From Candidatus Gastranaerophilales bacterium (GTDB lineage Bacteria; Cyanobacteriota; Vampirovibrionia; Gastranaerophilales; Gastranaerophilaceae), in the NCBI GenBank assembly GCA_944324395.1, contig CALUWC010000009.1, forward strand, positions 1 to 64,000: DNA of 64,000 bases, in the 5' to 3' direction. Made by a program: the position numbers and the translations under genes. Position 1 is the first letter of the stretch. Each line of letters begins with the position of its first letter. The notes under the pieces are model-generated. The model was not told where the DNA came from. It did not search any database and was given only the letters and a program-made list of their open reading frames with translations. Shown here in pieces: positions 61,153 to 64,000 of the stretch.

Positions 61153-61962
61153 TCATATATTATTAGGAGATTGCCTGCCTCTGCAAAAACAAAATATCAT
61201 ACCGGCAATGCCAATCACAAACAATATTACAGACATAATTTCAGCAACATGCAGACTGCCAATATCTAAGGCACTGTCAATTCGTATACGCTCAACAAAA
61301 AATCTTATAACAGAATATACTGTTAAATATGCAAAAAACGAAACTCCTGAATATTTTTTCCCAAACTTAAACAATATAAACGTTAAAATTCCAAAACCAA
61401 ATAAATCTAAAATGCTTTCATATAAAAAAGTCGGGTGAAATAATGAATAATTCATATATTCAACTACACGCTTAGATTCCGGAATAAAAACCCCCCATGC
61501 CTGACCGCTAACAGGAAATCCGTATGCTTCAGAATTAAAATAATTCCCCCACCTGCCTATTGCCTGCCCAAGAATTGTTGCACAGGACATTGAATCCAAA
61601 ACATTCATCACAGGAACTTTATTTTTTAAAGCTGATATCATCAATGCGGGAACTCCTAAAATAATAGCACCATGAATAGATAACCCTCCCTGACGAATAT
61701 CAAAAATTTCAATCGGGTGAGCAAAATAATATGAAGGATTCAACAAACAAAAATACAGTCTTGCACCAATTATGCCTGAAATTATAATAAGGGGTGCACA
61801 GCTTATTATAACATCTTTTCTCATTTTAACATTTATAACATTAAAAAACTTATTTCCAATAATAATAGCAACAAATATAGCTGATGCCAGAATAATACCG
61901 TACCAGTATATCGGGAAATTAAAAACACTAAATGCAACTGAAGATGGAGCCGGTATAATCAT
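61153..61962 (-). CDS. lgt: Prolipoprotein diacylglyceryl transferase
   Basis: 269 residues with seven membrane helices. GARLYFCLLNP, RQGGLSIHGAIILG, and GQAIGRWGNYFNSEAYG (the Lgt signature) are present. It adds diacylglycerol to the lipobox cysteine of preprolipoproteins. It lies next to a lipoprotein gene, with 2 nt between them on the same strand. Confidence 0.95.
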   Translation of the reverse strand: MIIPAPSSVAFSVFNFPIYWYGIILASAIFVAIIIGNKFFNVINVKMRKDVIISCAPLIIISGIIGARLYFCLLNPSYYFAHPIEIFDIRQGGLSIHGAIILGVPALMISALKNKVPVMNVLDSMSCATILGQAIGRWGNYFNSEAYGFPVSGQAWGVFIPESKRVVEYMNYSLFHPTFLYESILDLFGFGILTFILFKFGKKYSGVSFFAYLTVYSVIRFFVERIRIDSALDIGSLHVAEIMSVILFVIGIAGMIFCFCRGRQSPNNI

Positions 61963-61964
61963 TA

Positions 61965-62564
61965 TTACTCTTCAGGTATCGCTCCTATTTGTTTATCCGA
62001 ACCGGACTGATGGTCTTTTATTTTTTGAATCTGTTCTTGAACAGAAGCTTTATCCTCTGCATTAGGTGCCAGTTCCAAATATTTTTCATAATTCGCAATT
62101 GAAGCCTCATACAATTCTGAAATATACTGTTTTGCATCATCAGAAAGCTCGAAATCGTCTTGTGAAGAAATTTCATCGGCTTTAGGAGTGTATAAAGTTC
62201 CGTCAGTCTGCATTCTTACAGTACCCTGTTCCATATCTACAGCCAGATTATTTTCAGCTGTAGCAAGAGAATAATACGAATCGGCAGCCTCCGGTTTCAT
62301 TTCTATAACTTTTTTGTATTCTTCTACAGCATTAACATAATCTTCTGCCTGCGTATATACAACCGCCAGATTGTAATGAGTTTCAAACACGGAAGGATCA
62401 AGATCGATACTTGATTTTAATCTTTCAATTGCCTGGGTATAATCACCTTTATCAGCGTATGCTTTTGCTTTGTTATTCAAATCCTGAACAGCTAAATTAT
62501 TTATACAAGCCGTTGAAACAACCGCTACAAACAAAATACTTGCAATCAAAAGTACTTTCTTCAT
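61965..62564 (-). CDS. TPR lipoprotein
   Basis: 199 residues. The signal peptide ends in VVSTAC, a lipobox-like cysteine at about residue 20 (the -3 position is Ser rather than the usual Leu). Two clear TPRs follow (AKAYADKGDYTQAIERLKSS and VFETHYNLAVVYTQAEDYVNAVEEYKKVI), then a degenerate third and an acidic tail. As a probable outer- or inner-membrane lipoprotein it would itself be a substrate of the Lgt encoded next to it. Confidence 0.85.
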   Translation of the reverse strand: MKKVLLIASILFVAVVSTACINNLAVQDLNNKAKAYADKGDYTQAIERLKSSIDLDPSVFETHYNLAVVYTQAEDYVNAVEEYKKVIEMKPEAADSYYSLATAENNLAVDMEQGTVRMQTDGTLYTPKADEISSQDDFELSDDAKQYISELYEASIANYEKYLELAPNAEDKASVQEQIQKIKDHQSGSDKQIGAIPEE

Positions 62565-62680
62565 CTTTACCCCTCTTCAAACATGTTAAGCTGATGTTAA
62601 ACTAATTATAATTTAATAATAAAAATATAGCAAATTTAATAAATTTAAGTTACAATAAGGAAGAAAAAAGGAGAATTTAT

Positions 62681-62956
62681 ATGTCAGATGACAAAGTAGT
62701 CAGCCTCGGTGCCAAGAAAAAATCTATGGCTGATGAAAAACAACAGGAAGAAAACAACGGGAAAAATCAGGATTTAGTTTATTGCAGTTTTTGCGGAAGA
62801 CCCAATACCCAGGTTATAAAAATGGTCAAAGGTCCGGGTGTTAATATATGTTCTGAATGTGCAATGATAGCCGTTCAATATTTAATTTTGCAAGACAGAA
62901 TGCCTTCTGCTGAAGCACAGCATATTCTTGACGCATTTTGGGGAAAGGCCAGATAA
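62681..62956 (+). CDS. Stand-alone ClpX-type C4 zinc-finger protein
   Basis: 91 residues. Cys35, Cys38, Cys57 and Cys60 (VYCSFCGRP and ICSECAMIA) with the helix after them match the N-terminal zinc-binding domain of ClpX, which dimerises and binds substrates and adaptors. The AAA+ ATPase part of ClpX is absent. The rest is a charged N-terminal 30 residues and a short C-terminal helix. AAAGGAG before the ATG. It could be an adaptor, a decoy for ClpX partners, or a zinc-binding DNA or protein interactor. The HEAT-like gene begins 5 nt after it. Confidence 0.85.
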   Translation: MSDDKVVSLGAKKKSMADEKQQEENNGKNQDLVYCSFCGRPNTQVIKMVKGPGVNICSECAMIAVQYLILQDRMPSAEAQHILDAFWGKAR

Positions 62957-62961
62957 CATAG

Positions 62962-64000
62962 ATGACAGGTTCTAAATTTAAACAGTTGAATCCATTTGAA
63001 TTAAAATCTGCCATTACAAATTTATTAAATAAAATAAATTCTGTAAATGACATTCAAAATTGTCTTGCAGACTTTGAGCTTTTAGACGGACAGGAAGATA
63101 AAAAAGTTATTTCAAAAATTCTGTTTAAAGAACTTGTTAATGCCCACCCTGATAAAATATCCGTAATTTGTTTTATGCTCGAGCATTATGTCCCTAAAGA
63201 CGAATTAGTTAACAAATTGTGGGAAACTTTAAAAAATAAAAATCTAAAAACTGAAGTAAAAATAACTATCTTAAATTTACTGAGAGAACTTGATGCAGAT
63301 TGGTCTTACGAATCATGCGAAGAATATCTTGAGGATGCTCAATCTTTGCTTGATGAAAACACAAAACAGCTTTTAAATTCTGCCATAATAAACCCTGAAG
63401 TACAGATAGACTTTATGGATTTTCTGGCATCAATAAGAGTACAGGATAAAATAACATTAATAAACTCGCTCAGTGACGATTTTTCATCAGATGCACTGGC
63501 AAATATTTTAATTCCTATCTTTGTATCTGAGCCGGATTCTCCTGCCGGAAAAGAAGCCCTAAAACTTCTTGGACAAACAAAATCACAGCTTGCACTGCAT
63601 ATTTTAGAACAAATGCACAATCTCACACATGGAGAACTGAAACAAAATATAAAAAAAAGTCTTTCGGCTATAAAACTATCAGGTATAAGAGAAGATAATA
63701 CCAAAGAATTTTATAAAAAAATTCTTTCAAACAGTAAACCACAAAAATTCTATATAACGTATCCTGACGGTCATGGCGATCAAGCTTTAATATTTACAAG
63801 AGTTACAACCAATGAAAAAATTCGCTTTGTATCAATTGTTATCAATACAGATACCGGAATTAAAGACTGCTTTGGCTTCTTTGAAATATCTCAGTTTGAA
63901 TGCGACAAAATCCTAGAAAGATTTCTGCGTGATGAAAAAACGGTAAGCCTGCCGCCTGAAACATTTAAAACAATTTTATACAACGCAGAATTGACAACTA
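62962..64000 (+). CDS. HEAT-like repeat protein, 3' truncated by the window
   Basis: The frame is open from the ATG at 62962 to the window end, 346 codons, so the C-terminus lies outside. It is helical, with repeated hydrophobic pairs such as KTEVKITILNLLRELDADWSYE and LGQTKSQLALHILEQM, similar in style to the protein at 16339 though not clearly homologous. A later part (KPQKFYITYPDGHGDQALIF) looks beta-rich. It follows the stand-alone ClpX zinc finger by 5 nt without a Shine-Dalgarno, so it is probably translated by coupling. Confidence 0.8.
   Translation, partial: MTGSKFKQLNPFELKSAITNLLNKINSVNDIQNCLADFELLDGQEDKKVISKILFKELVNAHPDKISVICFMLEHYVPKDELVNKLWETLKNKNLKTEVKITILNLLRELDADWSYESCEEYLEDAQSLLDENTKQLLNSAIINPEVQIDFMDFLASIRVQDKITLINSLSDDFSSDALANILIPIFVSEPDSPAGKEALKLLGQTKSQLALHILEQMHNLTHGELKQNIKKSLSAIKLSGIREDNTKEFYKKILSNSKPQKFYITYPDGHGDQALIFTRVTTNEKIRFVSIVINTDTGIKDCFGFFEISQFECDKILERFLRDEKTVSLPPETFKTILYNAELTT

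Follow-up and report, generated by a model that had tools for sequence, protein, structure and literature searches.

A stand-alone ClpX-type zinc-binding domain encoded beside a HEAT-like gene in Gastranaerophilales

What does a ClpX-type zinc-binding domain do when it is encoded apart from the ClpX ATPase? The question is raised by a short gene near the end of the window, the stretch of 64,000 nucleotides (bases 1 to 64000 of contig C9) analyzed here from a 1.89-Mb gut-bacterial genome of Candidatus Gastranaerophilales. The frame of this gene, called ZF below, begins with ATG, ends with TAA and encodes all four cysteines (Table 1). Pfam zf-C4_ClpX (PF06689) matched ZF with 49.6 bits (E of 3.6e-13; cut-off 27), and the Pfam search gave neither an AAA+ match nor a second domain above cut-off. 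NCBIfam ClpX models, with cut-offs of 359 and 370.75, reached 30.4 and 28.1 bits. A phmmer search against the PDB at E up to 0.1 returned seven sequences, every one named ClpX, with the E. coli zinc-binding domain (ZBD) as the best match (E of 9e-8). In an alignment of 28 diverse rows, mean column identity was 58%, 20 columns were invariant, and the zinc cysteines were invariant in all 28; together with the Pfam score, this invariance rules out chance cysteines. ZF is a real gene that encodes a ClpX C4 ZBD without the AAA+ module. The original prediction had described such a protein, 91 residues long with four cysteines and no AAA+ module, and the ORF and the Pfam search upheld it.

Table 1. 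Features of the ZF locus; positions are those of the window unless stated otherwise
Feature	Position	Strand	Basis or remark
lgt, divergent neighbor	61153..61962	-	in 77 of 80 named loci
TPR lipoprotein-like gene, divergent neighbor	61965..62564	-	upstream of ZF in 78 of 80 named loci
Likely ribosome-binding site of ZF, GGAG	62670..62673	+	sequence; seven bases 5' of ATG
ZF, stand-alone ClpX-type C4 zinc-binding domain protein, 91 aa	62681..62956	+	ORF, Pfam and phmmer
Codons of the N-terminal KVVSL motif	62693..62707	+	followed by a charged low-confidence linker
Zinc knuckle, C35-x2-C38 ... C57-x2-C60	62783..62860	+	
C-terminal helices to invariant W87	62861..62941	+	hold six of the eleven positions that differ between ZF and ClpX
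HEAT-like gene, 533 aa	62962..64000, leaving the window; stop ends at contig base 64563 (L062:6963-8564)	+	
WGR-like beta domain in the HEAT-like gene, residues about 252-333	63715..63960	+	fold comparison only
453-aa protein with six Clp_N matches and no ATPase match	contig C9 65280-66641 (L062:9281-10642), beyond the window		

A broken or misassembled clpX would be the simplest origin of such a frame. A full clpX of 438 aa is present on contig C1 of the same genome, after the genes for trigger factor and clpP. A clpX ATPase frame directly after ZF, which the original prediction had named as the sign of an assembly error, was looked for, and no ATPase frame was found 3' of ZF; the next gene is instead the HEAT-like one (HEAT below), five bases past the ZF stop. 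The separate clpX, together with the same short frame beside HEAT in 55 of 58 order genomes, rules out an assembly error or a broken clpX.

That ZF is coupled to a HEAT-like gene had been predicted as well, with a search for the pair in other genomes as the way to check it. The pair is conserved. Our set of 59 genomes comprised 58 of Candidatus Gastranaerophilales and one (G058) from another family of the same class. The short ZF frame was present in 55 of the 58 order genomes and stood side by side with HEAT on the same contig in all 55. HEAT was present in 55 of the 59 genomes and absent from G058, which encodes a different ZBD protein of 145 aa, and from G017, G026 and G051; these last three, 66 to 84% complete, are also the three order genomes without ZF. 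Across 19 order neighborhoods, ZF adjoined HEAT in 19, RuvX was present in 18 and DUF1292 in 16, and the neighborhoods with RuvX or DUF1292 gaps (L102, L108 and L113) are cut by contig ends. The distance from ZF stop to HEAT start was at most 20 nt in 138 of 144 loci, with overlap in 51, in a count for which starts were chosen mechanically and some genomes entered via two collections.

Wider samples gave the same picture. A scan of named genomes yielded 363 pattern matches, 357 of them ZF relatives; among the best 80, the arrangement ZF-HEAT-RuvX-DUF1292-ClpN was found at 78 loci and ZF-HEAT alone at the other two, where contigs end early or hold no further match. Named relatives come mostly from metagenome-assembled genomes titled Candidatus Gastranaerophilales, Melainabacteria, Cyanobacteria or 'bacterium' (Zag_111 included), and a few are oddly labelled as Fusobacterium, Brachyspira or Muribaculaceae. 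In a phylum sample of 292 genomes, a close ZF relative was present in all family and order genomes but five (G197, G217, G237, G259 and G321), all of genus g30. The remaining phylum genomes had weak best matches to ZF, and those among the matches listed lie in frames of clpX length.

HEAT extends beyond the range of ZF. A HEAT profile detected the protein in 68 of 146 class genomes, some of them from families f46, f50 and f51, which lie outside the order. Fifteen loci were fetched: 12 with full HEAT from these three families, one with a HEAT fragment, and two from the window's family. An unfiltered ZF profile run in six frames over the 12 sister-family HEAT loci scored at most 0.2 bits, compared with 125 and 143 bits on the two loci of the window's family. 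RuvX follows HEAT in nine of the 12, and the three loci without RuvX are all from f50. Since HEAT and RuvX are more widespread than ZF, HEAT (with RuvX) is probably the older.

Genus g30 separates the two genes within the order. HEAT was present in 56 of 58 g30 genomes and ZF in 17 of 58, each time directly upstream of HEAT, in a count that leaves out four large-frame matches in G386, a scrap of 14 positions in G360 and a duplicate frame of 57 aa in G280. In the tree built from 33 g30 HEAT proteins (12 with ZF and 21 without), the ZF label changed five times, three times as forced by well-supported branches, a count that on the HEAT tree alone cannot separate losses from gains. Elsewhere in the order ZF is the norm, which makes its repeated loss within g30 the simplest reading; gain within g30 is possible. 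Of the 39 genomes that have HEAT but no ZF, 21 were searched for degenerate ZF remnants by running the unfiltered profile over as much as 1,200 bases 5' of HEAT. The 21 rows scored at most 2.6 bits, against 115 to 145 in 12 rows with ZF, and such remnants were rejected. A lost ZF-binding site on HEAT likewise left no trace: nine ZF-free g30 rows retained on average 96% of the 83 columns conserved in ZF-bearing sets, and four of the 83 columns dropped below 75%. ZF without HEAT was not found in any genome in which both were searched. HEAT is the wider of the two and is conserved without ZF; ZF is therefore an accessory of HEAT and not the reverse. In genus g18, several HEAT matches (e.g., G061, G064 and G075) read across one or two stop codons, and HEAT may therefore be shortened there.

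HEAT is predicted to consist of a helical solenoid, a WGR-like beta domain and a helical C-terminus. A one-chain model of ZF and HEAT, made from a relative's sequence with the natural stop read through and 56 alignment rows, reached a pLDDT of 84.6 and a pTM of 0.66; the C-terminal 309 residues of HEAT modelled alone reached 90.6 and 0.86. For neither model did Foldseek give a match at E of 0.001 or better. In the read-through model, residues 97-336 matched HEAT/ARM-type chains with high rmsd and Z up to 8.7, which is within reach of unrelated helical repeats, and Pfam HEAT_2 scored 12.8 bits on the protein, below its cut-off of 27.7. The beta domain gave a more uniform result: 12 of its 15 best fold matches were structures of PARP1, 2 or 3 (Z of 3.9 to 5.1; rmsd of 2.5 to 3.6 over 71 to 80 residues), and it also matched a phage protein that bears the WGR name (TMt 0.74, E of 0.37). 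Going by some entry titles, we take the matched PARP region to be the WGR domain. Pfam WGR did not match HEAT at E up to 0.1. With Z about 5, the putative WGR-like domain is a lead only, though one strengthened by the fact that 12 of the 15 best matches are of one kind. For the helical C-terminus, VIA-align gave no convincing relative, a result that excludes nothing. The RuvX neighbor belongs to the Pfam Holliday junction resolvase family, and RuvX has a role in rRNA maturation. By inference, RuvX and the WGR-like fold suggest a function in nucleic-acid processing.

To compare ZF with ClpX itself, 187 ZF loci (55 distinct domains; many genomes were reached twice) were set against 38 ClpX domains of the order (8 distinct). 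Like the N-terminal ZBD of ClpX (PF06689; PDB 1ovx and 2ds5-2ds8), ZF has four zinc cysteines and a following helix, and both share the pattern CSFC...V-x-K...GP-x-V-x-IC-x-EC. In the read-through model, the zinc domain superposes on ClpX ZBD 2ds6 (Foldseek TMt 0.72, E of 0.47). Positions follow what we take to be the numbering of E. coli ClpX without Met, anchored on F16 and I46. Thirteen positions are alike in ZF and ClpX (the cysteines and positions 15, 16, 24, 26, 30, 31, 33, 35 and 38), while 11 are conserved yet different (19, 21, 27, 34, 37, 41, 42, 44, 45, 46 and 49), six of them, including Ile46, in the last helix. Because ZF rows were chosen by the string NICSEC, this choice in part fixed positions 34 and 37; the separate 28-row alignment likewise shows no variation at either. 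Unlike ClpX, ZF also carries an extra C-terminal segment with an invariant Trp and a KVVSL-like N-terminal tail, and it stands in an operon of its own with HEAT and ruvX. Of 119 distinct ZF frames, 118 carried the tail pattern M-x(1,6)-K-[VI]-[VIL]-[STNKRQE]-[LIFM], and the one exception has Ala at its fourth place; among 534 background ORFs no shorter than 100 aa, 3 carried the pattern. Behind the tail, residues 8-26 form a linker with pLDDT below 50 in a modelled relative.

The anchors F16 and I46 were taken from PMC7804408, an excerpt of which places them in the ClpX ZBD pocket that is used by trigger factor and overlaps the lambda O site; according to the same excerpt, SspB and RssB bind this hydrophobic region. 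Phe16 is kept in all ZF rows counted. Position 46 is Tyr in all ZF rows counted but Ile in all ClpX rows counted.

These data tip the balance somewhat toward ZF being a detached ClpX ZBD that now serves as a dedicated accessory subunit of the older HEAT/WGR-like protein encoded with RuvX. The ZBD would have parted from the ATPase at the base of Gastranaerophilales or close to it, and then have become a subunit dedicated to HEAT. By analogy with ClpX, its knuckle may dimerize, and the changed helix face may bind HEAT (or RuvX); given RuvX and the WGR-like fold, the complex would handle nucleic acid. The KVVSL-like tail on its flexible linker could serve as a peptide handle by which a further partner, perhaps ClpX, is bound. 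We prefer this reading because the linkage to HEAT is close and so far exclusive and because ZF has a surface of its own. The HEAT coupling is also the stronger lead because ZF occurs only beside HEAT, where both were searched, and HEAT persists without ZF. Several observations count against the partnership: the pTM of the read-through model leaves the ZF-HEAT contact putative, the conserved HEAT columns persist in g30 genomes that lack ZF, the WGR-like match is one of fold at a Z of about 5, and a Clp_N protein encoded in the same operon leaves room for a Clp link.

That last protein follows DUF1292 in the window's genome and is present at 78 of the best 80 named loci. Like ZF, it is a docking module of a Clp ATPase minus the ATPase; unlike ZF, it is built from a different domain, here in a neighboring gene of the same operon. 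Elsewhere in the genome are Clp_N frames of 839 and 871 aa, presumably ClpC and ClpB. In seven g30 loci (L144-L149 and L154), clpP-clpX lies downstream of the HEAT operon. Both the Clp_N protein and this linkage are compatible with ZF being a ClpXP adaptor or recruiter, a role that we consider unlikely though worth weighing: the tail would dock on ClpX, and the ZBD or bound HEAT would present cargo such as RuvX or the HEAT complex. A flexible tail and a folded domain would be a possible likeness to the adaptors SspB and RssB, although these bind a ZBD and ZF is itself one. The near-invariant hydrophobic tail, rare in background ORFs, and the predicted flexible charged linker fit such a role, and ZF may be linked to ClpX through this tail. 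In a table of PMC9775585, N-motif-1 of ClpX substrates is a Lys-hydrophobic motif near the N-terminus. A loose form of this motif is found in the first residues of 121 of the 534 background ORFs and so says little; the tail as an N-motif-1 degron was left as weak. The ZF frames, moreover, are one family of one origin. As for linkage, clpX starts 6.4 to 9.2 kb past the HEAT start in the seven g30 loci, but four of these lack ZF (three have it), so the linkage is no evidence for ZF itself; it is also absent from two further g30 stretches, L152 and L153.

In the window's family, one operon holds two ATPase-free Clp docking modules (the ClpX ZBD and the Clp N-domain repeats) together with HEAT/WGR-like and RuvX proteins. 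These proteins might conceivably form a hub that tethers ClpXP and a second Clp machine, or their cargo, to a complex that processes nucleic acid; we consider this improbable.

ZF might also act as a decoy, titrating adaptors that bind the ZBD so that fewer reach ClpX. According to PMC7226468, free E. coli ClpX ZBD in trans inhibits RssB-mediated sigmaS turnover in vitro, so that competition by ZF for ClpX partners is possible in principle; by this analogy, so is the original idea of ZF as a competitor or adaptor. Phe16 of the pocket is kept, and trigger factor, an E. coli ZBD partner in the excerpt of PMC7804408, is encoded before clpP-clpX in the window's genome. Yet position 46 is changed throughout along with ten other conserved positions, SspB has no match in the window's genome, and a decoy would have no need of strict linkage to HEAT. 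The evidence favors a dedicated HEAT partner over a passive ClpX decoy, which we regard as quite improbable. That ZF is a zinc module for binding nucleic acid or sensing redox state, with no relation to protease docking, is very improbable: four cysteines and the RuvX and WGR-like neighbors would suit such a role, but the ClpX ZBD, a known protein-binding domain, gives the best alignment to the knuckle.

ClpX ZBDs without an ATPase are already known from annotation and from one paper, an excerpt of which describes zf-C4_ClpX as an accessory domain in some cyanobacterial sigma factors (PMC11119718). A Streptomyces zaomyceticus plasmid protein (WP_327166968.1, 123 aa; L265:2510-2881) and an Escherichia phage P88 protein (AIZ95127.1, 110 aa; L266:1369-1701), the latter annotated carboxylate-amine ligase, resemble ZF in having the ZBD but no ClpX ATPase. 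They differ from it in their extra parts and lack a KVVSL-like start, and no HEAT-annotated gene was found in the inspected stretches around them. ZF itself was sought in phages and plasmids and rejected there: all 19 phage and 43 plasmid matches fell short of 80% query coverage. Among the 43 plasmid matches, 20 were listed: nine are annotated clpX, one as a ClpX zinc finger protein, and the rest have no annotation at the matched place. A related ZBD was found on two viral contigs; a 58-residue frame on an IMG/VR contig (L263:3971-4147) encodes a ClpX-type zinc domain with NICSEC, as in ZF. Multiple ClpX-type zinc domains also occur. G386 encodes two large proteins (L150:3589-5835 and L151:3697-5316) with at least two each, whose N-terminal parts read like TPR repeats, and in family f8, 27 of 48 genomes have two to six, e.g., a 145-aa protein at L109:6805-7242. 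Among the matches listed, the open-licence literature held no description of the ZF family or of the ZF-HEAT-RuvX arrangement.

ZF is an order-wide conserved case of a protease docking domain encoded as a separate gene with a fixed partner, and a second ATPase-free Clp docking protein stands next to the ZF-HEAT pair. If the proteins of this operon indeed formed a hub, Clp proteases would be under the control of copies of their docking domains encoded in separate genes. The presence and absence of ZF beside the same HEAT gene within one genus provide a natural experiment on the role of detached docking domains.
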